From Desulfobacteraceae bacterium (GTDB lineage Bacteria > Desulfobacterota > DSM-4660 > Desulfatiglandales > Desulfatiglandaceae), in the NCBI GenBank assembly GCA_030613055.1, contig JAUWMR010000044.1, positions 1 through 36,090 on the forward strand: a stretch of 36,090 nucleotides of DNA, given 5' to 3'. Both the position numbers and the translations under genes were made by a program. The first letter of the stretch is position 1, and the number at the start of each line of letters is the position of its first letter. Below, piece by piece: positions 15-32,267 of this stretch. The notes beneath the pieces were generated by a model. It searched no databases. It was not told the origin of the DNA and saw only the letters and a list, made by a program, of their open reading frames with translations.

Positions 15-1355
15 ATGAGTTCTCATGACATGAAGAATCCGAATGGAGGAGTGAACATGAGGCACGTCACTGAACAGCCCGACCCAAATGATCACCTTCT
101 GGAGCGGATACTTTCCAGGGAAAATATGCTTCGGGCATGGAAACGGGTGAAGGCGAATAAGGGAGCAGCTGGTGTTGATGGAATATCAATAGCCGCGGTC
201 CCTGGCTTTATCCTTGACCGATTGGAAGATATCCGTAAGTCCCTTTTAGAGGGAAGTTATCAACCCTTACCGGTCTTTCGGGTGGAAATACCCAAACCGG
301 ACGGAGGAGTCCGTCCTCTGGGAATTCCCACGGTACTTGATCGGCTGATTCAGCAGGCCATGTCCCAGGTGCTGGTTGAGATATTTGATCCGACCTTTTC
401 TGAGTTCAGCTATGGATTCAGACCTGGAAGATCGGCCCATGATGCTGTCAAAAAGGTACGAGGGTATATCCGTGAGGGATACCGTATAGCCGTGGACATG
501 GATCTGTCGAAGTTTTTCGACTCTGTGAACCATGATGTTTTAATGCATCGTGTTGCACGGCGTATCCGTGATAAGCGGGTATTGCGCCTGATCGGAAAAT
601 ATCTCCGTGCCGGGGTAAAGGTAAAAGGGCGTCTTGAGAAAACCCGAAAAGGGGTTCCCCAAGGCGGCCCGCTTTCCCCGCTGCTGGCCAATATCATGCT
701 GGATGACCTGGATAAAGAGCTTGAGAAACGTGGCCACAGGTTCGCCCGCTATGCGGACGACTTTATTATCCTGGTGAAAAGCCAAAGTGCAGGAGAGCGT
801 GTGATGAAAAGTATCAGGCGTTTTCTTAAGAAAAAGCTCAAGCTCAAGGTCAATGAAAAGAAAAGCAGGGTGGCACCGACAGATCAGTGTAGTTTCCTTG
901 GTTTTACTTTTAAGGGGACTAAAATTCGCTGGTCTGATAAGGCGTTTAAGGAGTTTAAGAGGCGAGTCCGTCGCCTGACAGGTAGGAGCTGGTTTGTCTC
1001 AATGGATTACCGCATGCGGAAGCTTAAGGAATATATCCGAGGTTGGATGAACTATTTTGGGATTTCGGAGTACTACAGGCCGATTCCAATAATAGATGCA
1101 TGGATTCGGAGGCGGATAAGAATGTGCTATTGGAAACAGTGGCGCAAAACCCGTACCAAAGTCCGTGAGCTTCTCAAACTCGGTACGCCCAAACGAGAGG
1201 CAATCCTAACGGCCCTTAGTCGTAAAGGCTACTGGCATCTTGCCCGCACCCTTGCCACTCATACCGGCATGACTATTCAATGGCTGAAAGAACAGGGTTT
1301 GGTATCTGTAAAAGAACTTTGGGTGAACATCCATTACCCAGCTACGGCCCGGTAG
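15..1355 (+). CDS. ltrA: Group II intron reverse transcriptase/maturase
   Basis: Multifunctional intron-encoded protein that helps its host RNA fold and splice and copies it into DNA during retrohoming. The RT fingers and palm cover roughly residues 30-300: the KGAAGVDG motif near 49, FSYGFRPGRSAHDA near 131, VPQGGPLSPLLANI near 214 and the catalytic YADD at 246-249. A maturase (GIIM) segment with RGWMNYFGI follows near 342-350. There is no C-terminal HNH endonuclease, as expected for class C. Two starts are possible: ATG at 15 behind AAGGAG, and ATG at 57 behind GGAGG; the conserved family region begins after both, so the first 14 residues are uncertain. The frame is intact over 446 residues, so the element could still be active if its 5' ribozyme part is complete. 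Confidence 0.95.
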   Translation: MSSHDMKNPNGGVNMRHVTEQPDPNDHLLERILSRENMLRAWKRVKANKGAAGVDGISIAAVPGFILDRLEDIRKSLLEGSYQPLPVFRVEIPKPDGGVRPLGIPTVLDRLIQQAMSQVLVEIFDPTFSEFSYGFRPGRSAHDAVKKVRGYIREGYRIAVDMDLSKFFDSVNHDVLMHRVARRIRDKRVLRLIGKYLRAGVKVKGRLEKTRKGVPQGGPLSPLLANIMLDDLDKELEKRGHRFARYADDFIILVKSQSAGERVMKSIRRFLKKKLKLKVNEKKSRVAPTDQCSFLGFTFKGTKIRWSDKAFKEFKRRVRRLTGRSWFVSMDYRMRKLKEYIRGWMNYFGISEYYRPIPIIDAWIRRRIRMCYWKQWRKTRTKVRELLKLGTPKREAILTALSRKGYWHLARTLATHTGMTIQWLKEQGLVSVKELWVNIHYPATAR

Positions 1356-1432: not shown

Positions 1433-3232
1433 TTATGCAGATCGTCTCTTTTCAAAAAAGGTCCTGGCATTCTCCGCCAACTCCTCGTATCGGCTTTGGA
1501 GATACGCGTTATTGTGCTCCAGTCGTTCCCGTATTCTGTACAAGAAGTTGCCCCAAGAGTCGTCAACTGCCACTGGGTTACACAACTTCTCGTCCAATAG
1601 GTCCCTCAGCGATGAACCGCCCTGCAATGCTCCTTCCATGTGATCGAAGACCCCTGCATCGAAATACTGCAAGGGACGGACGTCAGCCTCATGTAAAAGG
1701 CCCTGACTATCTAGCGACCGCTTCACCTCTCTATGGATTATTGGATTCATGGGGATCTCTTCAAGTGTTAGAACAATAGGGTAATACTGTCTGATCTCCG
1801 CTGGGATAATGTTCCCTTTGTCACGCCAACCGCTCCTCAGCGCTTCAATGGTCGCCTGAATTTGCTGAGCGCCATCAATTATGATGTCATGAAGACGATC
1901 CTTGATAGCTGCTACATTGTGCCCTACTCGAGCTTCAAGACGAAACAGTGACGCCTTTATCTCTATCAAGACCACGGCATCCCCATATGAAATTAGACCA
2001 TCGCAGTACTTCCCCTTTATCTCACTACGAAGATCGTCGAAATTCAGGTACCTACCGGCAAGGTGTGGGAACACTCGGCAAAGGCACCGGTTAATGTAGT
2101 CGGCAAAGACCTCGCCCATATATGTCAGGTAACGTTGACGATCGCTGACAGGAACACTGTTGTCCAGGTAGACGTGATGAAGACCAGTGGTAAGCTTCTG
2201 CATCAGTAGCAGCAAGGAGGTCGAGTAAACTCGGTCATTAAAGCTCACTATCGGCCACTTCGCGAACGGTAAGACATCAAATGGGCGAAGCTCATCAGCA
2301 GAATACCGCTGTTCGACCGTTTCCTTGAACATACTCACATCTGTCTCACAGAGAGCATAGAAGTCTGCTTTCTCCGTATCGCTGAAGCTGAAGTTCCTGG
2401 AGAAATACGACCCTCGATTCAGGGCCATAGTGCCGCTTGAGAAGGCTTGAGCAGTGAGCGTAACCCAGTGGCTGCCGAGGGCAAATGTAGCTGCCCACAG
2501 GGCGTCTGGGTCAAGTCCAGTTATGGCCTTCAGTTGTCCCGGAAGGTCAACATAGGAACCGCAGTGACGGAGGCTCCGCTTATCAGTCAGATACAGGTCG
2601 TGGCATCGCGCGAGAGAATATGGACCCACACTTCCTGAGCTAAAAAGGCTATTCGCCAACATGTAGCTGACCCATCTGTCGAGATAGTCTGGATCATCTT
2701 CCTCCGCGATCGAGAGATCACCAGGCTCTCCCTCCGTCAGGTCGGTGACAATCAGGAACGCCTTGCCGAGTTCTATAAGATCCTCCGAGGAGTCCCTGTC
2801 GTCTATCTCCTTAATTATGAATGCGGCCTTGAGCAGATTCAGTGTCTGTTGCTCATGAAAAATCAACAATGGCGTTTTTCCCCCATCCTTCAGCATTTCC
2901 CTCTCGACGCACTTTGCAGCGTTGAGAATTCGAGTGATCTCAGCCTGCCCGAATATCCCTTGGCAAATCCGTAACTGTGTATTCGAATCCCACGGGAGCT
3001 TGGCCCCATATAAACTCGCACTGATCCGGCATGCTATGTCCACTATGCGTTCAAGCGAATATGGCGCAAGCGTTCTTTTGAGGTCTTCCCAGTCTGGCTG
3101 ACCTCCATAGACCTGACTATAGGAGAGGGTCACACCTAGAAACTCCAGAGACCCGTGTGAACTGAGCACCGACGATAGCCGAGGGTCGTATGGCAACCAA
3201 AGCATTGGTCTTGGTGGAAACAGCTTAGACAT
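1433..3232 (-). CDS. Uncharacterised protein with PD-(D/E)XK nuclease-like motif
   Basis: A 599-residue protein that I cannot assign to a named family. Near residues 372-380 it has MGEVFADYI, then CDG at 410-412 and LIEIKAS at 422-428. D411, E424 and K426 with an upstream glutamate (E374) fit the spacing of a PD-(D/E)XK nuclease core, so a restriction-like or defence-type nuclease fold is inferred; the 370 residues before it are unassigned. No signal peptide or membrane segment is seen. The ATG at 3232 follows GAAGGGG, and a good promoter lies upstream. The stop codon (1433-1435) coincides with the 3' end of the group II intron, so the original C-terminus may have been cut or replaced when the intron inserted. 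It stands alone, divergent from the peptide locus. Confidence 0.75.
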   Translation of the reverse strand: MSKLFPPRPMLWLPYDPRLSSVLSSHGSLEFLGVTLSYSQVYGGQPDWEDLKRTLAPYSLERIVDIACRISASLYGAKLPWDSNTQLRICQGIFGQAEITRILNAAKCVEREMLKDGGKTPLLIFHEQQTLNLLKAAFIIKEIDDRDSSEDLIELGKAFLIVTDLTEGEPGDLSIAEEDDPDYLDRWVSYMLANSLFSSGSVGPYSLARCHDLYLTDKRSLRHCGSYVDLPGQLKAITGLDPDALWAATFALGSHWVTLTAQAFSSGTMALNRGSYFSRNFSFSDTEKADFYALCETDVSMFKETVEQRYSADELRPFDVLPFAKWPIVSFNDRVYSTSLLLLMQKLTTGLHHVYLDNSVPVSDRQRYLTYMGEVFADYINRCLCRVFPHLAGRYLNFDDLRSEIKGKYCDGLISYGDAVVLIEIKASLFRLEARVGHNVAAIKDRLHDIIIDGAQQIQATIEALRSGWRDKGNIIPAEIRQYYPIVLTLEEIPMNPIIHREVKRSLDSQGLLHEADVRPLQYFDAGVFDHMEGALQGGSSLRDLLDEKLCNPVAVDDSWGNFLYRIRERLEHNNAYLQSRYEELAENARTFFEKRRSA

Positions 3233-3361: not shown

Positions 3362-3476
3362 ATGAAAAAGCAAGGAATTTATAGTCATACAAAGCCCCGA
3401 AAACTGCTGGATCAGGTGAGCGATATTATGCGTTTGAAGCATTATTCTATTCGCACCGAACGGTCTTACGGCTGCG
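3362..3476 (+). pseudogene. Truncated integron/tyrosine integrase N-terminus
   Basis: From the ATG at 3362 the first 37 codons read like the start of an integron-type tyrosine recombinase, with KLLDQVSDIMRLKHYSIRTE and then RSYG, matching the SAM-like DNA-binding N-terminus of IntI proteins. After that the frame runs on to 3646 but loses all resemblance; no catalytic R...HxxR...Y region follows here. The remnant is therefore a dead integrase start, probably left by recombination or deletion. It sits between the intron/nuclease region and the peptide locus and marks a site of past DNA exchange. Confidence 0.6.
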
Positions 3477-3571
3477 CGCTTGATGCCCCCGCAGAGCGGG
3501 ATTTCGCAAGCTCAACTCGCTCATCTCGGGCAAACTCGGCACTTGAAAAATTCAGGTATTACCTAAAATAC

Positions 3572-3600
3572 TTGACACTGCCAATAAATAGCTGCATAGT
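3572..3600 (+). promoter_or_regulatory. Probable promoter of the peptide-maturation operon
   Basis: A consensus TTGACA -35 box (3572-3577) is followed after 17 bases by CATAGT (3595-3600). The expected transcript starts near 3607 and would have a leader of about 50 bases before the ATG at 3661. It lies downstream of the integrase remnant. Confidence 0.5.
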
Positions 3601-3621
3601 CTTTACCTTATTTATATTAGT

Positions 3622-3639
3622 GGCGTTTGACCCAACGCC
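3622..3639 (+). promoter_or_regulatory. Leader hairpin just upstream of radical SAM gene 1
   Basis: GGCGTT (3622-3627) and AACGCC (3634-3639) form a perfect six-base inverted repeat with a six-base loop. It lies in the predicted leader, ten bases before the GGGGGTG ribosome binding site. It could affect translation or bind a repressor; neither is shown. Confidence 0.35.
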
Positions 3640-3660
3640 CTATTGAAATGGGGGTGTGCA

Positions 3661-4947
3661 ATGACTGCCTCGACCTACGTTGTTAAACGCAAACGAGGCC
3701 AGATGCCACTCAGGCGTGGGGCCAGGCTGCGTCTTGAACAACTCGACATCGAATTGACCGAGAGGTGCAATAACAACTGCATCCACTGCTGTATCAATCG
3801 TCCGCCGAACGATGCGTTAGCACGGTCACGCGAGATGACGACAGACCAGGTCAAGGACATTTTGCAGCAGGCCGCTGACATAGGCTGCCTGCAAGTGCGT
3901 TTCACCGGAGGCGAACCCCTCTTACGAACCGATTTTGAAGAGTTATATATTTACGGCCGTCGGCTCGGCCTGAAGGTGTTGCTCTTCACGAATGCGTGTC
4001 TCATCACGCCGGACCTGGCCGATTTGTTCGCCCGCATTCCACCACTTGTGACCATAGAGATCACTGTGTACGGGATGCACAAGGAATCCTACGAAGCGGT
4101 GACGCGCTCCAACGGTTCCTTTGAGCAATTCCGGCGCGGCTTGAATCTGTTGCTGGAACGTGACGTTCCGTTTGTTGTCAAATCAGCTATCTTACCGCAA
4201 AACAAGCATGAGATGGAGGAATTTGAAGCGTGGGCCAAGACCATTCCATGGATGACCATGCCGCCGGCCTATGTGATGTTTTTGGACCTGCGAAATCGCC
4301 GCGACGATGCCGAAAAAAACGCAACCATCGAATCGTTGCGCCTGTCGCCCCAAGAGGCGCTGGAGGTGCTCACGCGCGATGCAGCGAAATATCGTCGCGA
4401 CATGGCCGCGTTTGCGTCCAGGTTTATGACGCCACCCGATGACAGGCTGTTTAGTTGCGGCGCGGGACACGGTGTATGCATTGATGCCTATGGATACGCC
4501 CAACCGTGTATGAGCATTCGCGCACCGGAGTTGACGGTCAAACTTATCCCCAGGCCCGTCTCTGTACGAGAAGGGAAGTCGGCCTCCGCTGTTTCCACGT
4601 TAGAAAAGGGGGCAGGGCTGGGTACGTTAGCTGACGCTTTGGATCACTTCCTTCAATTCAGCAACCTGCGCGCGAATAATCCTGAATATCTGCGCCGTTG
4701 CGCGCAGTGTTTTCTGAAAGGCTTTTGCGAGCAATGCCCGGCCAAGTCCTGGATGGAGCATGGAAATTTGGACACGCCTGTCGCCTACCTATGCGAAATA
4801 GCCCACGCACAGGCACGTTACCTGGGCTGGCTGGACGGAAACGAATATGGCTGGGAAGTTACGGATTGGCGAGAAAGGATTAAAAACAGGCAGTCATGGG
4901 ACCTCGGTGAAGGCTCATCGGTGAGTAGAGCGAGTGCCTCTGGATAG
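3661..4947 (+). CDS. Radical SAM/SPASM peptide-modifying enzyme 1
   Basis: Predicted to bind a [4Fe-4S] cluster, cleave S-adenosylmethionine and install radical-based crosslinks or related changes on a ribosomal peptide. The 428-residue protein has the cluster motif CNNNCIHC (C36, C40, C43) and a GGEP SAM-binding motif at 83-86. Its C-terminal SPASM region carries C266, C273, C283, C347, C350, C356, C359 and C378, enough for auxiliary clusters. The ATG at 3661 is preferred because GGGGGTG sits 5-10 bases upstream; an in-frame TTG at 3643 would add six residues. The precursor peptide gene follows 51 bases later. It is clearly related to enzyme 2 of this locus (shared ITVYG and EVTVYG, TRSNGSF and TRKPGTF regions), but has a longer insert before the last cysteines and an extended C-terminus. 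The modification type cannot be read from sequence. Confidence 0.9.
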   Translation: MTASTYVVKRKRGQMPLRRGARLRLEQLDIELTERCNNNCIHCCINRPPNDALARSREMTTDQVKDILQQAADIGCLQVRFTGGEPLLRTDFEELYIYGRRLGLKVLLFTNACLITPDLADLFARIPPLVTIEITVYGMHKESYEAVTRSNGSFEQFRRGLNLLLERDVPFVVKSAILPQNKHEMEEFEAWAKTIPWMTMPPAYVMFLDLRNRRDDAEKNATIESLRLSPQEALEVLTRDAAKYRRDMAAFASRFMTPPDDRLFSCGAGHGVCIDAYGYAQPCMSIRAPELTVKLIPRPVSVREGKSASAVSTLEKGAGLGTLADALDHFLQFSNLRANNPEYLRRCAQCFLKGFCEQCPAKSWMEHGNLDTPVAYLCEIAHAQARYLGWLDGNEYGWEVTDWRERIKNRQSWDLGEGSSVSRASASG

Positions 4948-4998
4948 GTCCCCCATGAATGACAGAACCACACTTAACAGATTGAAAGGGAGGGTAAA

Positions 4999-5187
4999 AT
5001 GAAAAAGACTGAAAAGAAACAGTGGCACAAACCAGAGTTGATAGTTTTGACGAGAAACAAACCGGAGGAGCAGGTGCTCACTGCCTGCAAGGGATGCACC
5101 AGTCCACCGACCTCAGGACCGTCAAACGGATCATACAATTGTGTGACCGGACCAATGCCGGCATGTTATGACTGTTTCACTTCCTAA
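4999..5187 (+). CDS. Cys-rich RiPP precursor peptide
   Basis: A 62-residue peptide with a strong ribosome binding site (GGGAGGG, ATG at 4999). The first 29 residues look like a leader: charged and hydrophilic start, then KPELIVLTRNKPEEQVL, a stretch that could form the strand gripped by a PqqD-like recognition domain. From residue 29 on it is rich in Cys, Pro, Gly and Ser with five cysteines: C30 and C33 (CKGC), C48, and C56 and C59 (CYDC). Its place between a SPASM enzyme and a PqqD-like gene makes it the likely substrate, and cysteine-based thioether crosslinks are a plausible product. There is no double-glycine cleavage site. The cleavage point and final product are unknown. Confidence 0.8.
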   Translation: MKKTEKKQWHKPELIVLTRNKPEEQVLTACKGCTSPPTSGPSNGSYNCVTGPMPACYDCFTS

Positions 5188-5188
5188 T

Positions 5189-5233
5189 CCATGGTTTTTG
5201 GGTATTTTCGTGATGAACTAAGGCAAACCATGG
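5189..5233 (+). promoter_or_regulatory. Stem-loop after the precursor gene
   Basis: CCATGGTTT (5189-5197) and AAACCATGG (5225-5233) are perfect nine-base complements separated by 27 bases, starting two bases after the precursor stop codon. It lacks a following T-run, so it looks more like a processing or partial-termination element that could keep precursor mRNA in excess over the downstream enzymes than a full terminator. Confidence 0.4.
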
Positions 5234-5561
5234 GAGTGATACAGAGTAGCGGTTAGGGGATCTTGCAGCGGAGTGGCAAAGGTGTGCGTGCCTCGTGCTT
5301 AATGCGAGGGGCGGGGCGGGGTTCTTTGCCCGCCTGCCGCCAGAATATACGGTCAGGGTACCCATAATCATCGACACACCCTTGGACTGGCTCTTTCCTC
5401 CCATGTCCGAATCCATCCGTCTTGTTGCCGATAAACACAACTCCATCAGCAATATCATTGAATCGGATACCAGTCCTCCGGGACGGAAAAAGGAGAGTGA
5501 GGACTAAGTTAGGGTGAACCCTTATCGGCAAACAACACAAAGGGAACAGAAAGGAGTGGTC
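5234..5561 (+). other. Unassigned gap between precursor and PqqD-like gene
   Basis: About 330 bases separate the stem-loop from the PqqD-like gene, much more than any other gap in this locus. A + strand frame from a GTG at 5295 to 5507 could encode 70 residues, but it has no clear ribosome binding site, no cysteines and no family resemblance, so I do not call it a gene. It may be remnant DNA or a poorly conserved small protein. Confidence 0.4.
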
Positions 5562-5867
5562 ATGACAACCCATCTCGACCTGAATGCTGTCTGTGCAAGG
5601 TCTGGAGACGTGGTCGCGCGGGAAATCGAAGGTGAAATTCTTATCGTCCCGCTTGTCGCCGGTATCGGTGATGCGGAGGACGAACTGTACACGCTCAACG
5701 AGACCGGTCACGCCATCTGGCAAAAACTGGATGGGCAACGGACACTGAAGGAGGTGGCTGCATCACTCGTGGATGAATTCGACGATCCCCTCGCGGAGGT
5801 TGAAAAGGATGTTCTCGGTTTTGCGAACGAGTTGACGCGGCGTGGCATACTTGTGGCAAAGCCATAA
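5562..5867 (+). CDS. PqqD-like peptide recognition protein
   Basis: A 101-residue protein of the PqqD family, the winged-helix RiPP recognition element that binds leader peptides and hands them to radical SAM enzymes. Visible family features are LYTLNETGHAIWQKLDG (about residues 44-60), where most members have a similar N-x-T/S-g-x-x-I/L-W segment, followed by RTLKEVAASLVDEFD and a closing LxxxGIL. The ATG at 5562 follows AAGGAG with correct spacing. It is a free-standing protein here, not fused to either radical SAM enzyme, so one copy may serve both. It lies 31 bases before the next start (5900). Confidence 0.85.
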   Translation: MTTHLDLNAVCARSGDVVAREIEGEILIVPLVAGIGDAEDELYTLNETGHAIWQKLDGQRTLKEVAASLVDEFDDPLAEVEKDVLGFANELTRRGILVAKP

Positions 5868-5899
5868 TTTACCAGGAAGGACAAAAAAGGAGCAAGGAG

Positions 5900-5941
5900 A
5901 TGGACGTGAAACCTTGGTATTCTTCCTGCACCACGCCATGA
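5900..5941 (+). CDS. 13-codon upstream frame coupled to the peptidase gene
   Basis: An ATG at 5900 directly behind AAGGAGCAAGGAG opens a frame reading MDVKPWYSSCTTP and stopping at TGA 5939-5941. The stop overlaps the ATG of the peptidase-like gene (ATGA at 5938-5941). That downstream ATG has no ribosome binding site of its own, so the mini-frame most likely feeds ribosomes into it. Alternatively it marks an old frameshift. A function for the peptide itself is not claimed. Confidence 0.4.
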   Translation: MDVKPWYSSCTTP

Positions 5942-6858
5942 CGAAAGCAGCCTCTGCAAAAATCCATACCACAAAAAGCCTCGCCGGGGCTTCACTGGAG
6001 ATTGCCCGCGTGCTCGCTGACCGCGATGGTGTGACCTTTCGCGCCGACGGAACATGCATGTATCCGACCATTCGGCCAGGCGATGTGCTCCATATTCAAT
6101 CACGCACGGCGGTTGATGTCTGTGTAGGTGATATTGCCGTTTGCCGTAGGCCAAAATACCTGTTCAGCCATCGCGTCATCGCCAAAGGTTCGGAAGATGG
6201 ACGATCATACATTGTCACCTGTCCTGACCGCAGACGCAATAGAGACGATGGTCCCACCTTTGACGAAAACCTGCTGGGGGTTGTGGTCGCCATCAAGCGC
6301 AAGGGCAAATCTTTACCGCTCCAGCCGGGAACCCATCCGTGGCCAGTGCGCCGCTACTTTGCCCTGCGCCTGGCGCTGATGGAGACCAGGTTGCGGGCAC
6401 TCCTTTGGTGGTCAAGTATACTGGCGCGTGTGCAAGAAAACGCACTGTATCGACACATAGGCAGGGCCTGGCTCTTTCTGGTGCGTCCCCAAATCTCTTA
6501 CACCGTACGCGTGCCAATGCCTGCGTTAGGCGACGCTGTCTATCGCCAAATGGCGCCTGAAACCTTCAATGTACAGATGGATTGGCGTGGTCGTCCGGTG
6601 CAACGTTGGACATTGACCCTGCACTTGAATAGCGCGCCCCAACCCGCCGCATGGATGACATTCGCGCGCGGCGCAACGGATAATTGGTTGGTAGAAGAGT
6701 CATTCGTGTATGCACGCTATCGGGGTGCGGGTTTGGGTGAGATGTTGTTAGGCCAGGCCGATGCGATTCTGCTGCGGGGTCGGAACAGGAAGCAAGGAGA
6801 CCAAGGATTGGAAGAAAGCGACAAGCCGTCGCGACCTTCCATTATTTCCATGAAATAA
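5938..6858 (+). CDS. S26/S24-type peptidase-like protein with Cys for Ser, fused to a partial GNAT domain
   Basis: A 306-residue two-part protein. Residues 30-120 resemble the signal peptidase/LexA fold: GTCMYPTIRPGD (38-49) is the family box in which the catalytic serine is normal, here C40; VGDIAVCRRPKYLFSHRVIA (63-82) provides H78 where archaeal/ER-type signal peptidases have their histidine; D97 is a possible third residue. A Cys/His protease or an inactive binding module are both possible. No clear N-terminal membrane anchor is present. Residues about 250-280 (EESFVYARYRGAGLGEML) match the acetyl-CoA-binding motif A of GNAT acetyltransferases, but the protein ends soon after in a charged tail, so the GNAT fold looks truncated. 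It is translationally coupled to the 13-codon frame and lies 20 bases before radical SAM gene 2. Role inferred: leader removal, possibly plus acetylation. Confidence 0.7.
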   Translation: MTKAASAKIHTTKSLAGASLEIARVLADRDGVTFRADGTCMYPTIRPGDVLHIQSRTAVDVCVGDIAVCRRPKYLFSHRVIAKGSEDGRSYIVTCPDRRRNRDDGPTFDENLLGVVVAIKRKGKSLPLQPGTHPWPVRRYFALRLALMETRLRALLWWSSILARVQENALYRHIGRAWLFLVRPQISYTVRVPMPALGDAVYRQMAPETFNVQMDWRGRPVQRWTLTLHLNSAPQPAAWMTFARGATDNWLVEESFVYARYRGAGLGEMLLGQADAILLRGRNRKQGDQGLEESDKPSRPSIISMK

Positions 6859-6878
6859 AATCACTAAAGGTATGGTCT

Positions 6879-8000
6879 GTGCCGGAATCCATTTCGATTG
6901 AAATCCAACAGTTTCCCCTCTGGGAAAAACTCAGAGCGAAGCGCGTCCCGCTTTCCTTTGATATGGAAATTACAGCGCGGTGTAACAGCAATTGCCGCCA
7001 CTGTTACATCTGCCTGCCATCAGGCGACCGTACCGCAAAGAGGCGTGAGCTCACCATCACCGAAATCGATGATATTGCCGGACAAGCTGTAACCCTCGGT
7101 GCGGTATGGTGTCTCATCACTGGCGGCGAACCGCTCTTGCGCCCTGATTTTGGAGACATATATCTCACTCTCAAGCGCAGGGGCTTGCTTGTCTCAGTCT
7201 TTACCAACGCTACGCTCGTGAGCCAGGCACACATTGCACTTTTTAAGAAATATCCGCCGCGGGATATCGAAGTGACGGTGTATGGCGTCACGCGCGACAC
7301 TTACGAGCGCGTCACACGAAAGCCCGGCACATTCGAAAAATTCATGCGCGGGCTGAACATGCTGATGGAAAGCGGCGTGCACATCCGCCTCAAGTCAATG
7401 GTGATTCAATCTAACCTCCACGAGCACGCCGCCATTGCCGAATTTTGCCGTGCCCACACGAAGGATTATTTTCGCTTCGACCCGCAACTGCACCTGCGCT
7501 TTGACGGCGACGCCGGCCGCAACGCCAATATAAAAGCAGAACGCCTGACGCCTGAACAAATCATTGCCATTGAACAGTCCGATGAACAGCGGATGAACGC
7601 TTTTCAAAAAAACTGCGACATGCTTATCAACCAGGATTTCACCCATTTCGGCTGCAACCATCTCTTCCACTGCGGTGCCGGCAATGGCAGCTTCAATATC
7701 AGTTACGACGGCAAATTCAGACTGTGTTCATCATTGTGGGCGCCTGAAACGGTGTATGATCTGCGGCAAGGCACCCTCGCCGATGCCTGGAATCATTTCG
7801 TGCCACGGGTACGAGAGATGCGCTCGAACCGGCAAGAATTTCTTGAAACTTGCAGGGTGTGTCCGCTGGTCAATCTTTGTCTGTGGTGTCCGGCCCATGC
7901 CTATTTGGAAACCGGTGAATTGGACGGCGCCACACCCTATTTTTGCGCCGTCGCCAAAGCCAGAGCGAAAGTCCTTAGCAATGAAGAGGGCAGTGGCTAA
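6879..8000 (+). CDS. Radical SAM/SPASM peptide-modifying enzyme 2
   Basis: A 373-residue second SPASM enzyme of the locus. The SAM cluster motif is CNSNCRHC (C35, C39, C42), GGEP is at 82-85, and the SPASM part carries C259, C265, C283, C325, C328, C334, C337 and C356. It starts with GTG at 6879 behind AAAGG. It is a diverged paralogue of enzyme 1, shorter by about 55 residues, without that enzyme's inserted segment and C-terminal tail. Two such enzymes with one precursor suggest either two sequential modifications or two different bond types, but an obligate pair is also possible. Its 3' end overlaps the ABC transporter start by 20 bases. Confidence 0.9.
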   Translation: MPESISIEIQQFPLWEKLRAKRVPLSFDMEITARCNSNCRHCYICLPSGDRTAKRRELTITEIDDIAGQAVTLGAVWCLITGGEPLLRPDFGDIYLTLKRRGLLVSVFTNATLVSQAHIALFKKYPPRDIEVTVYGVTRDTYERVTRKPGTFEKFMRGLNMLMESGVHIRLKSMVIQSNLHEHAAIAEFCRAHTKDYFRFDPQLHLRFDGDAGRNANIKAERLTPEQIIAIEQSDEQRMNAFQKNCDMLINQDFTHFGCNHLFHCGAGNGSFNISYDGKFRLCSSLWAPETVYDLRQGTLADAWNHFVPRVREMRSNRQEFLETCRVCPLVNLCLWCPAHAYLETGELDGATPYFCAVAKARAKVLSNEEGSG

Positions 8001-9825
8001 GTCCGTCGGAATCCGGAGGGTACTCTTGGGTATAGGAAGACGACACAAACTGCACCTCAAAGGGGTACTTTCTTTGTTATGGAAGGCCGCCCCGGGCTGG
8101 ACCTTTCTCAGCTCAGTGCTGCTTGGGCTGCAGGCAGGGTTGCCTTTGCTGCAACTCTATCTCATGAAACTCACGGTGGATGCGGTGACAGCGGCCATCG
8201 GTGCCCCAGACAAGGGAGTCGCCATCGGCCAGGTATTGCTGCTCATCTGTTTTATGGGCGCAGCTGCTCTGGCCGCTGTTTTTCTTGCTTCTATTGCGAG
8301 GGTCGTTGGGCAGGCCCAATCTCAGGTTGTTGCCGACTACGTCCAAGATGTGATTCATACCAAGTCCGTTGCACTTGATCTGGAATATTACGAAAACTCC
8401 GGTTTCTATGACACCCTTCACCGCGCGCAGCAGGAAGCCCCCCATCGCACCACCAACATTGTGAACGGACTCGTACAGGTTGTGCAGAACTCCGTGATCC
8501 TGATAGGGATTGCGGGTCTTTTGTTTTCCTGCCACTGGGGAATTACTACGGTATTGTTTGTCTCCCTGTTACCCGCGTTTTTCTTTCGCCTAAAATTCGC
8601 GGACAAAATATACACGTGGCAGTTCCATAGGTCTACAGTGGACAGAACGACTGTCTATCTGAACTGGCTGCTCACCGGCCAGTTCTACGCCAAGGAAATC
8701 CGGCTGTTTGACCTGGGGTCCCTGTTCATACAGCGTTTTCGCAATTTGCGCCACCAGCTTCGGAAAGAGAAAATAGGTATCGCTTTCAGGTACGCCCTTA
8801 CTGAACTGGTTACCGAAACGTGCGCCGCTATCGCGATATTTGGTTCATTGGCCTTCATCGCCTATCGGACAGTGCAGGGGGCCATGACATTGGGGGACAT
8901 GGTGATGTACTATCAAGCGTTTCAGCGGGGACAGGCATATCTTCGTGACATGCTGGGCGGACTTGCGGGCCTCTATGAAGATAACCTGTTTCTTTCCAAT
9001 TTTTATGATTTCCTGGATTTGAAGTCCAAGGTCATCGAACCCCGCCTGTCTGTTCCCATTCCCAAACCCATAATAAGGGGGATTGTTTTCGACAATGTGG
9101 ATTTCCAGTACCCGACGGGCGAGGTCATGGTGCTAAAAAATATCAACCTGACCATCCGCCCCGGGCAGGTGGTGGCGCTGGTAGGGGAAAACGGGTCAGG
9201 GAAAACAACCCTGGTAAAACTGCTGTGTCGGCTGTACGACCCGACGACCGGGAGTATCACGGTGGATGGTATCGATCTGCGCCACTTTGAGACCACCGCA
9301 TTGCGCCGTGAATTCGGCATCATTTTTCAGGATTATGCTCAGTACCAGATGACTGCCAGGGAAAATATCTGGATGGGAAATATACTGTTGCAACCCGATG
9401 ACAAGAAAATAATTGAGGCAGCAAAGTACTCAGGTGCTCATGACATTCTGGAAAGACTCCCTCAAGGCTACGAAACCATGCTGGGCAAGTGGTTCGGTAA
9501 CGGGGCGGAACTAAGTATCGGTCAATGGCAAAAGGTGGCATTGGCCCGGGCTTTTCTGCGTGATGCTCAGATTATTGTCCTCGATGAGCCTACCAGCGCT
9601 ATGGATGCCAAGGCCGAACATGCCGTTTTCCAAAATTTTCGCGACCTGGCCTCCGGTCGCACGGCGATCCTAATAAGTCATCGTTTTTCTACCATCAGAA
9701 TGGCTGACAGTATATATATGCTAAAAGATGGAAGGATCATTGAAGAAGGTACACATGAAGAATTGATTCATTATGGCGGTTCATATGCCCACTTGTTTCA
9801 AATCCAATCCAAGTACTATAGGTAA
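7981..9825 (+). CDS. ABC transporter, fused permease-ATPase (peptide exporter)
   Basis: A 614-residue half-transporter: a six-helix ABC exporter membrane domain over about residues 20-330, then an ATPase with Walker A GENGSGKT (402-409), signature LSIGQ (511-515, Ile instead of Gly) and Walker B IIVLDEP (531-537), with the SHR switch histidine after it. ATG 7981 is chosen because the open frame upstream lies inside radical SAM gene 2; the start overlaps that gene, so translation is probably coupled. There is no C39 cysteine-protease domain at the N-terminus, so leader removal must be done elsewhere, which fits the peptidase-like protein of this locus. It likely exports the mature peptide as a homodimer. 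Confidence 0.9.
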   Translation: MKRAVAKSVGIRRVLLGIGRRHKLHLKGVLSLLWKAAPGWTFLSSVLLGLQAGLPLLQLYLMKLTVDAVTAAIGAPDKGVAIGQVLLLICFMGAAALAAVFLASIARVVGQAQSQVVADYVQDVIHTKSVALDLEYYENSGFYDTLHRAQQEAPHRTTNIVNGLVQVVQNSVILIGIAGLLFSCHWGITTVLFVSLLPAFFFRLKFADKIYTWQFHRSTVDRTTVYLNWLLTGQFYAKEIRLFDLGSLFIQRFRNLRHQLRKEKIGIAFRYALTELVTETCAAIAIFGSLAFIAYRTVQGAMTLGDMVMYYQAFQRGQAYLRDMLGGLAGLYEDNLFLSNFYDFLDLKSKVIEPRLSVPIPKPIIRGIVFDNVDFQYPTGEVMVLKNINLTIRPGQVVALVGENGSGKTTLVKLLCRLYDPTTGSITVDGIDLRHFETTALRREFGIIFQDYAQYQMTARENIWMGNILLQPDDKKIIEAAKYSGAHDILERLPQGYETMLGKWFGNGAELSIGQWQKVALARAFLRDAQIIVLDEPTSAMDAKAEHAVFQNFRDLASGRTAILISHRFSTIRMADSIYMLKDGRIIEEGTHEELIHYGGSYAHLFQIQSKYYR

Positions 9826-9867: not shown

Positions 9868-10989
9868 ATGAAATATCGTTTACTATGCGTATTGGCAGGG
9901 ATGATAGCGCTTTTTGTTTTTGCGGACAAAAGGCCCGTCATGGCAAATGATATTCCTATTGGGGAGATTAATGAAACCAGGGGGCCTGTCACAATTGTGA
10001 AAGAGGACGGCAGGGAGATAAGGGCTGAAAAGGGATCCTTTGTTTTCCCCGGTGATCAGATAACCACCGGGAAGGGGGGCATGGTATGGTTTTCCTTTCA
10101 AAATGGAGACCGATTCAGACTCTATGAAGAGGCACAGGTCTCTTTAGATGAACTTTCGTCCCCTGAAATGGATGATCATCGACCTGTCATGCGACTGGTA
10201 TTGGGCTATTTGTGGTCCAAAATAAAAAAATTAAGAGCAGGTCCGGCAAGAGCAGTTATTCATACTCCTACGGCCATTATAGGTATCAGGGGCACTGAGT
10301 TTGATACGGTAGTGTCTTTAGACGCGACCTCGGTTATCACGGTCGATGAGGGCACGGTAGAAGTGGAAGCGCAAGAAGAGAAGACAGTGATGGGCGAAGG
10401 AAAAATGATGCAGGTTGAGGTTGATAAAAAGGCGGGCCCTCCTGTGGAGGCAGTGGCAAAGGACAAGAGAGACTGGCAGGAGTGGCGGAGAAAGAGGATC
10501 AGGATGCTTTTTAAAAATCTTCCTCAAAAGGCACCGAAGTTTCGAAGACGATTTGAAAAGGGAGTAAATCGCTTTTCACGATTTACAGCAAGGGTCAGGG
10601 AAAATTCGAGACGGGTTTCAGCGAAGGTTGAGAAAATCCGTCAGGCCAGAATACACAAGGACCGTAAACAGGCCCTTCAATTAGTGAAAGAATTAAAGAT
10701 AGATTTGCAAAGATTCAAAAAAAAGGTCGCAATGTTTAGAAAGGCATTAAATCGTGTCCGTGTGATGGGCAAACTCTCCCACAGGCTGGAGATGTTTGTC
10801 GCCAATAATATGGCACGCTTCAGCGAGCGGGATTATGCCGCCATTGGTTTGCATCTCAGTGCAATCTCCGGCAAGCGGGATCAATTGAGAACCACTGCCC
10901 GTGACACTATTATGAGTATAAAAAAGACCTTTAGAGAGCTTAGACAACTGAGAGATGAGACAAGAAGAGGAAGGAGAATAAAAACATAA
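9868..10989 (+). CDS. FecR-domain exported protein with basic coiled C-terminus
   Basis: A 373-residue secreted protein. Residues 1-26 form a signal peptide (KYRLLCVLAGMIALFVFA core, probable cut after VMA). The FecR domain covers about 35-170 and shows GDQITTGKGG and the hallmark HTPTAIIGIRGTEF. From about 210 to the end it is rich in Lys and Arg with heptad-like spacing, suggesting a coiled coil or nucleic-acid/anionic-polymer binding. ATG 9868 follows GGAGGGCCGGGG. It begins 42 bases after the ABC transporter stop and could be read from the same transcript, though it more naturally pairs with the sensor gene 14 bases downstream. In Desulfobacterota such FecR proteins are often free-standing and not tied to iron uptake; no TonB receptor or sigma factor is nearby. 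Confidence 0.85.
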   Translation: MKYRLLCVLAGMIALFVFADKRPVMANDIPIGEINETRGPVTIVKEDGREIRAEKGSFVFPGDQITTGKGGMVWFSFQNGDRFRLYEEAQVSLDELSSPEMDDHRPVMRLVLGYLWSKIKKLRAGPARAVIHTPTAIIGIRGTEFDTVVSLDATSVITVDEGTVEVEAQEEKTVMGEGKMMQVEVDKKAGPPVEAVAKDKRDWQEWRRKRIRMLFKNLPQKAPKFRRRFEKGVNRFSRFTARVRENSRRVSAKVEKIRQARIHKDRKQALQLVKELKIDLQRFKKKVAMFRKALNRVRVMGKLSHRLEMFVANNMARFSERDYAAIGLHLSAISGKRDQLRTTARDTIMSIKKTFRELRQLRDETRRGRRIKT

Positions 10990-11003
10990 AAGGAGTAAAA
11001 GAT

Positions 11004-11606
11004 ATGAATGATGCGGATTTTTTGGCAAATGTTTCTTTATTCTCGCTTATGAAAAGAAATGATCTGGAGCGTATCGCAACGCTTGCACAGCGGCATTCTT
11101 TCGGTAAAGGCGATATAATTATTCATGAGGGTGATCGAGACAGGAGACTTTTTGTAATCCTTGGCGGCAAGGTAGAAGTTATTAAAAATCTGGGCAGCAA
11201 AAAGGAGACCTGTCTCGGGACCTTCGGCCCGTTGAGCTATTTTGGAGAGATGGCCCTGATTGATGACCTGGTTCGATCGGCCAGTGTTGTCGCCAAAGAG
11301 GACACGCAGATCCTGTCTTTGAATCAACTGAACCTGCGCAGGGAAATTGAAAATTATCCCCTAATATCCATTGAGCTGCTCCAGATGCTGAGCAGGCGTA
11401 TCCGTGTAATTGAAAAGACCCTGATAAACACGCTGGGCGGTATTTTACCTATTTGCGCAAATTGTAAAAAAATACGTGATAAAAACGGATCATGGATACC
11501 GATGGAAGTCTATATCTCAGACCGTTCCGAAACTGAATTTAGTCACAGTATTTGCCCTGAATGTTCAGAAAAGCTGTATCCTGAATTTACAAAAAAGTGT
11601 TCATAA
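11004..11606 (+). CDS. Cyclic-nucleotide-binding sensor with C-terminal CXXC pairs
   Basis: A 200-residue protein. Residues 10-130 are a Crp-type cyclic nucleotide-binding domain (GDIIIHEGDRDRRLFVILGGKVEV, FGEMALIDDLVRSASVVA phosphate-binding cassette). Instead of a DNA-binding helix-turn-helix, the C-terminus has two CXXC pairs, C151/C154 and C184/C187, in the pattern ICANCKKIRD...ICPECSEKLYP. This module is known at the ends of PAS and response-regulator proteins of Desulfobacterota and may bind a metal. It therefore probably signals by protein contact, not as a transcription factor. AGGAG precedes the ATG, and the FecR gene ends 14 bases upstream, so the two form an operon. Confidence 0.85.
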   Translation: MNDADFLANVSLFSLMKRNDLERIATLAQRHSFGKGDIIIHEGDRDRRLFVILGGKVEVIKNLGSKKETCLGTFGPLSYFGEMALIDDLVRSASVVAKEDTQILSLNQLNLRREIENYPLISIELLQMLSRRIRVIEKTLINTLGGILPICANCKKIRDKNGSWIPMEVYISDRSETEFSHSICPECSEKLYPEFTKKCS

Positions 11607-26295: not shown

Positions 26296-27354
26296 ATGTA
26301 TGAGCAGGGACCGATCAGGCCTCCCAGTGAGGCATCCAGTTTATTAGTACGTGTGACGAGGAATTGTCCGTGGAACAGATGTCTTATGTGTCCGGCATAC
26401 AAAGGTACGACTTTTTCCAAAAGGACAGTTGATGAGGTCAAAAGCGATATTGATGTGATGGCAAAGGAGCATGGCCCGTATTTTGACAGGATCACATCTG
26501 CATTTTTACAGGACGCCGATACACTGATTATCCCGGCCGGGGAGTTATTGGAAATCATTAAGTACGTCAAAATGAAATTCCCCAATATTACCAGGATAAC
26601 GACCTATGCCCGCGCAAAGAGCATGAAGAAAAAAAGTGTTGATTCGTATAAGGCGCTCAAGCAGGCGGGTTTGACAAGGATCCATACAGGCATGGAAAGC
26701 GGTTCGGCCAGGGTGCTTAAAATGATAAAGAAAGGATCAACTCCTGAGGACATTGTAACCGGAGGTCTGCGGGTTATGGAGGCAGGTATTTCCCTTTCAG
26801 AATACATCATGCCGGGCGTTGGGGGAAAACCCTTGAGCGAAGAACATGCCCTTGAGACTGCCAGACTGCTCAATATTATCAGGCCGGACTATATCAGGGT
26901 GCGTACGTTTGCCATGCACCCGAAATCGCCCATGCAAAAGATGGTTAAGGAGGGGGCCTTTATTCCCATGAATGATGAGGAAATCGTGGCTGAGATACGG
27001 TTGCTGGTTTCCAACCTTGATGAAATGCACTCTCATTTCCGGTGTGGTGATTTCAGTCTAAACCTTTTAATGGGGGTTGACGGTTATCTTGACAGCCAGA
27101 AAGATGACATGTTGCAAGAGCTTGACTCGTATCTTTCTTTAACCAAAAGACAGAAACAGGCATATTCGCTTTTGCATCGCTCCGGCCACTACTTTCATAG
27201 ACCCATTGACCTGGTCAATGACAAGAAGGTGCTGGATCAGGTATCAAATGATATTGAAAGACTGGAGAAAGGCGCTGAAGACGGGTTTGACAAGTACATA
27301 CACGAACTGATGTCCTATCAATTGCCACAACCACAAACCGACGACTGGACATAG
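26296..27354 (+). CDS. Radical SAM protein with CX4CX2C cluster motif
   Basis: A 352-residue Elp3/HemN-like radical SAM protein of unknown substrate. The cluster motif reads NCPWNRCLMC, with C24, C29 and C32, giving CX4CX2C where most radical SAM proteins have CX3CX2C. Further features are DADTLIIP near 76, TYARAKSM, a GMESGS motif near 141 (SAM-binding strand typical of the Elp3/MiaB class) and RTFAMHPKSPM. No B12-binding or SPASM domain is attached. AAGGGAG precedes the ATG at 26296. It stands between repeat elements with no operon partner closer than 380 bases. Confidence 0.85.
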   Translation: MYEQGPIRPPSEASSLLVRVTRNCPWNRCLMCPAYKGTTFSKRTVDEVKSDIDVMAKEHGPYFDRITSAFLQDADTLIIPAGELLEIIKYVKMKFPNITRITTYARAKSMKKKSVDSYKALKQAGLTRIHTGMESGSARVLKMIKKGSTPEDIVTGGLRVMEAGISLSEYIMPGVGGKPLSEEHALETARLLNIIRPDYIRVRTFAMHPKSPMQKMVKEGAFIPMNDEEIVAEIRLLVSNLDEMHSHFRCGDFSLNLLMGVDGYLDSQKDDMLQELDSYLSLTKRQKQAYSLLHRSGHYFHRPIDLVNDKKVLDQVSNDIERLEKGAEDGFDKYIHELMSYQLPQPQTDDWT

Positions 27355-30848: not shown

Positions 30849-32267
30849 ATGACCAACAAAAATAAATTGCTGTTTGCGAAAATACCTTCTGTTGACCGGT
30901 TATTGATGACCCAGGTTTTAGAAGAAGTTTTAGCCTCATACCCCAGACCCTTGGCATTGACGGCCATAAACCAGGTTTTAGATGGTCTGCGGGAAAAAAT
31001 AAAAAGGGGCGAGATCACAGAAGAGGAACCGGAGTTGATCATTGAATCGGTTTCAAATCAGGTTGCTAAGGAAGTGGAGTTGATATCCGCGCCAAGCCTG
31101 AGGCCGCTGATAAATGCGACCGGTATCGTTGTTCATACTAATTTAGGGCGGTCAATCCTGGCTGAGAAGGCCCTCGAGAAATTCAGGCCTATTGGCGGCG
31201 GATACAGCAACCTGGAATACAATCTTGACCAGGGAAAGAGGGGAAGCCGTTATACACATGTGGAGGGTATCTTAAAGGAGTTGACTTCCGCAGAGGCAGC
31301 CATGGTGGTCAATAACAATGCTGCTGCTGTTCTTATCTCACTTGAGACCCTGGCAAAAGGGCGCGAGGTCGTTGTATCCCGTGGGCAACTCGTGGAAATA
31401 GGCGGTTCTTTCCGCATTCCGGCCGTGATGAGCAAGAGCGGGGCAAAAATGGTGGAAGTTGGAACTACCAACAAGACACATCTCTGGGATTATGAGGAGG
31501 TTATCGGCCCTGATACCGCCCTTTTATTAAAAGTCCATACAAGCAATTATCAGATAGTGGGCTTTACCGAAGAGGTGCCTTTGACCGAGCTTGTAAAGCT
31601 GGGCAGACGATACGGAATCCCCGTCATGGAGGATCTGGGCAGCGGCTGCTTCGTGGATTTTTCCAAATACGGTGTGCTCAAGGAACCCCCTGTACAAGAG
31701 GCTATCGCCCAGGGCGCAGACCTTGTTACGTTCAGCGGGGACAAGCTGTTGGGAGGCCCGCAGAACGGCATAATTTTAGGGAGAAAAGATATTATTGAGG
31801 CAATTAAAAAGAATCCATTAAACAGGGCACTCAGGATCGATAAGCTGACGCTTCTGGCCTTAGAGGAGACATTGAGGCTGTATCGCGATGAAAGTGTAGC
31901 TATAAAAGAGATCCCTACCCTCAGGATGATACTCCAGCCCTACAGGTCTTTAAATAAAAAGGCGGAACGGCTCCTCAAATTGATAGGAGTAGTAACCACG
32001 AAAAATTTTTCTGTTGAACTGATAGATGGTAATTCCAGACCAGGAGGAGGCGCCTTGCCTCTTTCAGAATTGCCAAGTCGTTTGCTATGCCTGGTACCGC
32101 AAAAGACGTCTTCAAAATCAATGGAAAGGTGGCTCAGGGCCAATGATCCTCCGGTGATTACCAGAGTCGAAAATGATAGGGTTCTGCTTGATGTCAGAAC
32201 CATACAGGAAAGAGAACTGAAGACAGTAGCAGAGGCGGTGAAGGGCCTTGCCGAAATCATTATCTAA
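30849..32267 (+). CDS. selA: L-seryl-tRNA(Sec) selenium transferase
   Basis: Converts Ser-tRNA(Sec) to selenocysteinyl-tRNA(Sec) with selenophosphate, using PLP in a large ring-shaped oligomer. The 472-residue protein has the N-terminal tRNA-binding region (IPSVDRLL), NATGIVVHTNLGRS, VVNNNAAAVLISL, EDLGSGCFVDF, and the PLP-lysine motif FSGDKLLGGPQNGII with K299. Length matches the family (about 460). ATG 30849 follows AGGAGAA. Neither selB, selD nor selC is in the window, so selA is apart from the rest of the system here. It shows that the organism makes selenoproteins. Confidence 0.96.
   Translation: MTNKNKLLFAKIPSVDRLLMTQVLEEVLASYPRPLALTAINQVLDGLREKIKRGEITEEEPELIIESVSNQVAKEVELISAPSLRPLINATGIVVHTNLGRSILAEKALEKFRPIGGGYSNLEYNLDQGKRGSRYTHVEGILKELTSAEAAMVVNNNAAAVLISLETLAKGREVVVSRGQLVEIGGSFRIPAVMSKSGAKMVEVGTTNKTHLWDYEEVIGPDTALLLKVHTSNYQIVGFTEEVPLTELVKLGRRYGIPVMEDLGSGCFVDFSKYGVLKEPPVQEAIAQGADLVTFSGDKLLGGPQNGIILGRKDIIEAIKKNPLNRALRIDKLTLLALEETLRLYRDESVAIKEIPTLRMILQPYRSLNKKAERLLKLIGVVTTKNFSVELIDGNSRPGGGALPLSELPSRLLCLVPQKTSSKSMERWLRANDPPVITRVENDRVLLDVRTIQERELKTVAEAVKGLAEIII

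Follow-up and report, generated by a model that had tools for sequence, protein, structure and literature searches.

A six-gene locus with two SPASM radical SAM enzymes and a Cys-rich precursor peptide: a candidate RRE-guided peptide pathway in a Desulfobacteraceae bacterium

Background

What does a bacterium make with a locus that carries two SPASM-type radical S-adenosylmethionine (SAM) enzymes, a single small Cys-rich peptide and a peptidase of its own? Such a locus is found in a stretch of 36,090 nucleotides from a Desulfobacteraceae bacterium (JAUWMR010000044.1, contig C73 in our numbering), in the following called the window, which is part of a 4.26 Mb genome that is 95.6% complete. Six genes, all on the forward strand, span positions 3661-9825. 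We conclude, with a probability of about 0.82, that they encode a pathway for a ribosomally synthesised and post-translationally modified peptide (RiPP) guided by a RiPP recognition element (RRE). In this pathway two radical SAM enzymes would modify a Cys-rich peptide, which would be trimmed by a peptidase and exported, and as far as we could find the family has not been described previously.

An earlier note, made from the letters of the DNA, had listed two SPASM enzymes, a 62-residue Cys-rich peptide, a PqqD-like protein, a peptidase-like protein and an ABC exporter on one strand, and all six open reading frames (ORFs) were confirmed. The features are the following.

3661-4947 (+): rSAM1, radical SAM/SPASM peptide-modifying enzyme, 428 amino acids, ATG start (Radical_SAM 86.7 bits)
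4999-5187 (+): precursor peptide, 62 amino acids, 5 Cys (relatives: 80 distinct precursors from 58 loci)
5562-5867 (+): PqqD-type discrete RRE, 101 amino acids (PF05402 59 bits, E 5.7e-16)
5938-6858 (+): archaeal/endoplasmic-reticulum-type signal-peptidase-like leader peptidase with a diverged GNAT-like C-terminal domain, 306 amino acids
6879-8000 (+): rSAM2, second radical SAM/SPASM enzyme, 373 amino acids (Radical_SAM 78.3 bits, SPASM 22.4 bits)
7981-9825 (+): MsbA-like ABC exporter (TIGR02203 292.7 bits, under cut-off; ABC_tran 120.9 bits)
3572-3600 (+): promoter-like site TTGACA-17-CATAGT, 5' of the operon, matching 10 of 12 consensus positions (weak evidence)

The genes are separated by gaps of 51, 374, 70 and 20 nucleotides, followed by an overlap of 20 nucleotides between rSAM2 and the exporter gene. 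The spacing had been described as mostly short gaps or overlaps, which holds everywhere except for the 374-nucleotide gap. A consensus promoter had also been proposed; the match itself stands, but the region has nine sites of this type where 5.6 +/- 2.4 would be expected, which is near chance level.

Results

The two radical SAM enzymes were searched separately in 395 genomes of the phylum. Nine genomes carry rSAM1 (threshold E <= 1e-60), and in nine of nine an rSAM2 orthologue lies at most about 4 kb away on that contig (hypergeometric P ~1e-16); rSAM2 orthologues at >=55% identity were found in 11 of the 395. When GTDB genomes were scanned with rSAM2, 75 loci were retrieved, in which the presence of rSAM2 itself is given by construction. 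Among 38 well-flanked loci, rSAM1 was present in 36, the PqqD-type and the signal-peptidase-like protein in all 38, and a recognisable precursor in 32, the missing ones possibly reflecting the limit of detection. The same loci contained an HPr-kinase-like domain (32), a third SPASM enzyme (28), a related exporter (18) and an NTP_transf_5 protein (15). The joint occurrence of both enzymes with similar precursors in other genomes, on which the earlier note had let its reading stand or fall, was thus found in the phylum scan as well as in the well-flanked loci.

The order rSAM1, PqqD, S26 (the signal-peptidase-like protein), rSAM2 is kept in 47 of 59 complete loci, and three loci (L019, L020 and L086) carry the same kinase-less set of six genes in the same order as the window. 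Hosts include Syntrophaceae/Smithellaceae, which are closest to the window, as well as Chlorobiaceae, Acidobacteria, Aminicenantes, Chloroflexi, Omnitrophota, Actinomycetota, WOR-3, a planctomycete and methanogenic archaea. Bins can contain misplaced contigs, which makes single host assignments soft but not the overall spread. A kinase-containing form is present in at least one named strain, Desulfobotulus alkaliphilus ASO4-4 (L079).

A BLAST search with the window peptide alone retrieved relatives in most loci, with E values down to 1e-27. As relatives occur in dozens of loci, the 62-residue peptide of the window is a real gene. The 80 precursors collected by profile search share the leader consensus K-K-x-W-x-K/T-P-E/Q-L-x-V-L-x-R/K-x-x-P-E-E-x-V-L-x-x-C-K, and the spacing from W to Cys is 21 in 75 of the 80. 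The leader W and P are 100% conserved, which is partly built in by the motif used for collecting. Identity is 52% in the leader part and 28% in the remainder, compared to 24% for shuffled sequences. The part following the CK junction consists of about 35 hypervariable residues, mostly with four Cys when the one in CK is counted, and the final Cys is usually found six residues before the C-terminus. The last residue is Ser in 88% and Thr in 6% of the 80 precursors (94% together), while Ser ends 11% of the other small ORFs in the same loci; this residue was not part of the collecting motif. In the window peptide we find W9-H-K-P12, the leader W9-x-K-P-E-L ... PEE-x-VL-x-x-C30-K31, five Cys and a terminal Ser62. 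It is the sole copy in its genome, and related loci carry up to five different precursors each. A plasmid search with the precursor gave no match, and no NCBIfam, Pfam or PHROGs model matched it at cut-off; its leader weakly matches NF033524 (E 0.036).

Two further precursors, L016:9041-9214 (-) and L017:11640-11804 (+), have YxxP in place of WxxP and retain VLxxCK as well as the terminal Ser. Their clusters contain one SPASM enzyme, a kinase, a peptidase, PqqD and NTP_transf_5, without rSAM1, so the precursor family extends beyond the two-enzyme form.

Although Pfam detects no SPASM domain in rSAM1, the three radical SAM Cys and the seven SPASM Cys are all retained throughout 44 rSAM1 and 69 rSAM2 sequences (100% conservation). 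In a tree of 74 sequences, rSAM1 (support 100), core rSAM2 (98) and rSAM3, the third SPASM enzyme of most relatives (100), form separate clades. Judged from the tree, the three are old, separately conserved paralogues that have stayed together in one cluster, which argues for distinct, non-redundant roles. The split of tasks proposed earlier for the two enzymes is plausible on this ground, but both may instead work together, as the two radical SAM enzymes of thuricin CD do in one complex (PMC12093266). One Chlorobiaceae locus (L046) carries two copies each of rSAM1, rSAM2 and the kinase, together with two precursors.

The protein encoded at 5938-6858 scores 34.6 bits with TIGR02228, under cut-off, and SEC11A/C was matched in a profile search. 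Its predicted structure (mean predicted local distance difference test score, pLDDT, 80.6) resembles E. coli LepB (Z 10.0, root mean square deviation, rmsd, 3.1 over 99 residues) and SEC11C (Z 8.8). In its C-terminal part the prediction resembles GNAT acetyltransferases (Z 8.3), which fits the clear GNAT domain that certain relatives have in this half. His and Asp of the catalytic triad are kept in 70 of 70 peptidases, the nucleophile being Ser in 60, Cys in nine and Asn in one. In the window the triad is Cys40-His78-Asp97, with Cys replacing Ser. The Cys forms make up one clade of nine loci from bacteria and one archaeon (support 94 with the nucleophile column masked, from few columns), and the window and its three close relatives combine a Cys at this position with the absence of the kinase. 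Scans with NCBIfam and Pfam found no C39 peptidase domain on the exporter, in agreement with the earlier reading of a separate peptidase and no C39 protease.

Two features go beyond the earlier note: the peptidase is of the archaeal-type signal-peptidase kind known from linear polyphosphorylated peptides (LPPs; Popov et al. 2026, PMC13381572), and most relatives carry a third SPASM enzyme with a fused kinase. The HPr-kinase-like domain of most relatives is either part of this enzyme, rSAM3, or stands alone. A model of the domain (pLDDT 93) matches HPr kinase 1kkl (Z 12.3, rmsd 2.8 over 129 residues), and PEPCK about equally well. The His, Lys and Asp-Asp kinase motif, whose residues are reported to be essential in paeninodin-type lasso kinases (PMC9266682), is present in 53 of 65 hits, the remaining hits being partly fragments. 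With a kinase in the fetched locus, 65 of 66 precursors end in Ser or Thr, and without it 11 of 14 (Fisher P 0.016, a weak difference with related rows). In paeninodin systems the kinase phosphorylates the precursor at its C-terminal Ser, which makes the near-invariant C-terminal Ser the natural target of the kinase in the relatives.

Taken together, a precursor, a recognition protein, two SPASM enzymes, a separate peptidase and an exporter lacking C39 strongly support the RiPP system that had been proposed.

In the surroundings of the cluster, a reverse transcriptase, apparently of the group II intron type, is encoded at the contig edge at 15-1355 (+), and no intron RNA was found by Rfam. A 599-residue protein at 1433-3232 (-) has weak similarity to the anti-phage protein GapS1 (46.4 bits against a cut-off of 320) and no match in Pfam, PADLOC or PHROGs. 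The short ORF at 3362-3646 (+) starts, by eye, like the N-terminus of a tyrosine integrase and then breaks off; it is possibly the remnant of a mobile element beside the cluster. Downstream, the FecR-domain and cyclic-nucleotide-binding proteins at 9868-11606 were excluded from the cluster, as their families do not recur across related loci. Further along the contig, another radical SAM protein (26296-27354) and the selenocysteine synthase SelA (30849-32267), both (+), gave no indication of being connected with the cluster.

Discussion

Gene content, co-conservation, motifs, catalytic residues, predicted folds and purifying selection were observed directly, and from these we infer the chemical steps, their order and the biological role. 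The PqqD-type protein would bind the WxxPxL leader of the 62-residue precursor and hand the precursor to both SPASM enzymes; binding of WxxP by RREs was shown experimentally in the work on LPPs and paeninodin (PMC13381572). The SPASM enzymes would then take hydrogen atoms from the Cys-rich part, approximately Cys30 to Ser62, and the Cys sulphurs would most likely be joined to other residues. Each enzyme may make its own bonds, or both may act as a complex. The signal-peptidase-like protein, with its Cys nucleophile in the window, would next remove the leader, and the MsbA-like exporter would move the product out of the cell; antagonism, signalling and a function at the surface are candidate roles. 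Most relatives also have a kinase domain, as a rule fused to the third SPASM enzyme, and phosphorylation of the nearly invariant C-terminal Ser is its probable task; the nucleotidyltransferase-like protein may then add a sugar or a nucleotide. In the window genome the kinase would have been lost, or was never present.

Several points weigh against this pathway. The product is not known and the type of bond cannot be read from the sequence. No cleavage site is recognisable in the precursor, and there is no double Gly. No HPr-kinase match was found in the 95.6% complete genome, and the retention of the C-terminal Ser without a kinase means that this Ser may serve something else. Related exporters are absent from about half of the well-flanked loci. 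Part of the conservation owes something to the sampling, namely the loci fetched through rSAM2 and the leader residues collected by motif, and the estimates of selection given below are rough.

No NCBIfam model was matched at cut-off by any of the six window proteins, and a description combining radical SAM enzymes with LPP- or paeninodin-type machinery was not found in the open-licence papers searched. The nearest relatives in overall design are the LPP systems, in which a leader peptidase resembling signal peptidase I and assisted by an RRE has been shown experimentally (PMC13381572). The window shares with them the discrete RRE and the MsbA-like exporter, and its leader peptidase resembles theirs, which is of the archaeal signal-peptidase type, in family and in the His and Asp of the nucleophile-His-Asp triad. 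Most relatives add an HprK-like kinase and often an NTP-transferase, and a variable core following a conserved leader is common to both families. In contrast, LPPs are linear, restricted to Bacillota, carry the leader YxxPxVLxHQxIxFETxxS and are phosphorylated on core Ser3, and the LPP paper mentions no radical SAM enzyme (PMC13381572). The present family has two or three SPASM enzymes, the leader WxxPELxVLxRxxPEExVLxxCK, a Cys-rich core and a C-terminal Ser, and occurs in bacteria and archaea. The window differs further in having Cys where the LPP peptidase has Ser, and in having no kinase. Among 110 flank proteins of related loci, glycosyltransferases (5) and Wzz (4) recur thinly, which gives no more than a hint of a link to surface polysaccharides as reported for LPPs.

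Lasso peptides of the paeninodin/pseudomycoidin type (PadeK, PsmK, PsmN) share the WxxP leader, the discrete PqqD-type RRE and the C-terminal Ser, and in most or some relatives also the HPr-kinase-like enzyme and the nucleotidyltransferase. They differ by having a lasso cyclase and B2 peptidase where the present family has SPASM enzymes, and by another leader peptidase; neither a macrolactam cyclase nor a B2 peptidase was found among the proteins scanned, which were those of the cluster and of the genes directly next to it.

The SynChlorMet cassette (TIGR04248-TIGR04252) likewise has two SPASM enzymes and a PqqD-type protein, an overlapping host range, and in ScmC a distant relative of the kinase found in related loci (42.7 bits). 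This identity was rejected, as the scores are all far under cut-off (ScmE and ScmF 62-86 bits against 400, ScmD 32.8 against 100) and a SynChlorMet-like cassette exists as a separate neighbour in one locus. The ScmA model gave no match for the window peptide and 11.7 bits against 35 for one relative. The neighbouring cassette, L040:542-2285 (-) in a Methanothrix bin (ScmE 362 bits), and a cluster of the present family are a few kb apart, so that two RRE-dependent systems adjoin each other; in Bacillota, LPP and paeninodin systems are reported to be neighbours in the same way. GeoRSP models were also under cut-off (radical SAM 46.9 against 400, PqqD 27.4 against 100).

The alternative that survives best places the locus among the sactipeptide or ranthipeptide clusters already known, with both SPASM enzymes forming thioethers from Cys to carbon as for thuricin CD or ruminococcin C. 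It overlaps in chemistry with the pathway proposed here and differs in assigning a known class. Pairs of SPASM radical SAM enzymes act on Cys-rich precursors in these systems too, thuricin CD being a precedent (PMC12093266). The complete auxiliary-cluster Cys sets agree with it, and SkfB and PqqE are among the solved structures nearest to the window enzymes. However, all class models are far under cut-off (StsB 80.6 against 625, PapB 46-48 against 340 and AlbA 54.5 against 850 bits), and the RRE domains of thuricin CD reside within its enzymes, while the RRE here is discrete. To our knowledge no signal-peptidase-type leader peptidase or kinase occurs with thuricin CD or ruminococcin C; a discrete RRE, such a peptidase and kinase partners are traits of the LPP/paeninodin group. 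We regard this alternative as conceivable but doubtful, and sactipeptide or ranthipeptide chemistry is not established for the window. Each of the classes LPP, paeninodin, sactipeptide and SynChlorMet has one or more defining features that the window does not show.

Somewhat unlikely in our view is that the SPASM enzymes make point changes, such as epimerisation, hydroxylation, methylation or similar, without any cross-links, the Cys forming disulfides. The reactions of radical SAM enzymes acting on peptides are indeed varied (reviewed in PMC8326336). The four Cys of most cores could give two disulfides. Cross-linking, however, is what most of the characterised SPASM enzymes do when they act on Cys-rich peptides, and this speaks against point changes.

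A decaying remnant, in which the window lineage has lost the kinase and the remaining genes make no product, is very improbable. The genome without a kinase would agree with decay, and so would the reverse transcriptase gene and the minus-strand ORF upstream and the 374-nucleotide gap at 5188-5561, in which no recognisable gene was found. This gap between precursor and PqqD is longer than in L019, L020 and L086, and as it is single copy in the genome a repeat element was ruled out; no Rfam RNA was found within the cluster. Against decay, these three loci keep the identical kinase-less order of six genes, no kinase being present in the fetched loci of these nearest relatives either, and the active-site residues are all intact. 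Purifying selection is indicated by dN/dS values of 0.10-0.16 for all five larger genes between the window and its nearest relatives, values that are rough because synonymous sites are close to saturation.

The least probable alternative, a cofactor pathway in the style of pyrroloquinoline quinone (PQQ) or mycofactocin with the peptide as mere scaffold for a small redox molecule, has in its favour the PqqD and PqqE-like SPASM proteins and the occurrence in anaerobes, but a scaffold should stay constant, whereas the hypervariable cores and the presence of several precursors in one locus point rather to a product that would be under diversifying pressure, and the PQQ and mycofactocin models are under cut-off (PqqE 74 against 381, PqqD 41.5 against 46, mycofactocin maturase 75.5 against 265 bits).

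Conclusion

Beyond the RRE-guided pathway of the window, the related loci suggest a wider idea, to which we would give even odds. According to it, a bacterial and archaeal RiPP family unites radical SAM cross-linking by two to three SPASM enzymes with the action of a kinase that is fused to one of these enzymes and (poly)phosphorylates a C-terminal Ser, a sugar or nucleotide sometimes being added. The leader would be removed by a signal-peptidase-type enzyme, in its Cys-His-Asp form in the clade of the window. If true, radical SAM peptide chemistry and the LPP/paeninodin machinery, so far kept apart, would meet in one pathway. The 80 precursors, with a fixed leader and a free core, are a large natural set for studying how one substrate is shared among two or three SPASM enzymes, and two features lend themselves to direct tests, the radical SAM enzyme fused to a kinase and the exchange of Ser for Cys within a signal-peptidase fold. 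Most hosts are anaerobes that have not been cultured, such as syntrophs, methanogens, Aminicenantes and Omnitrophota, and hardly any peptide products are known from such organisms.

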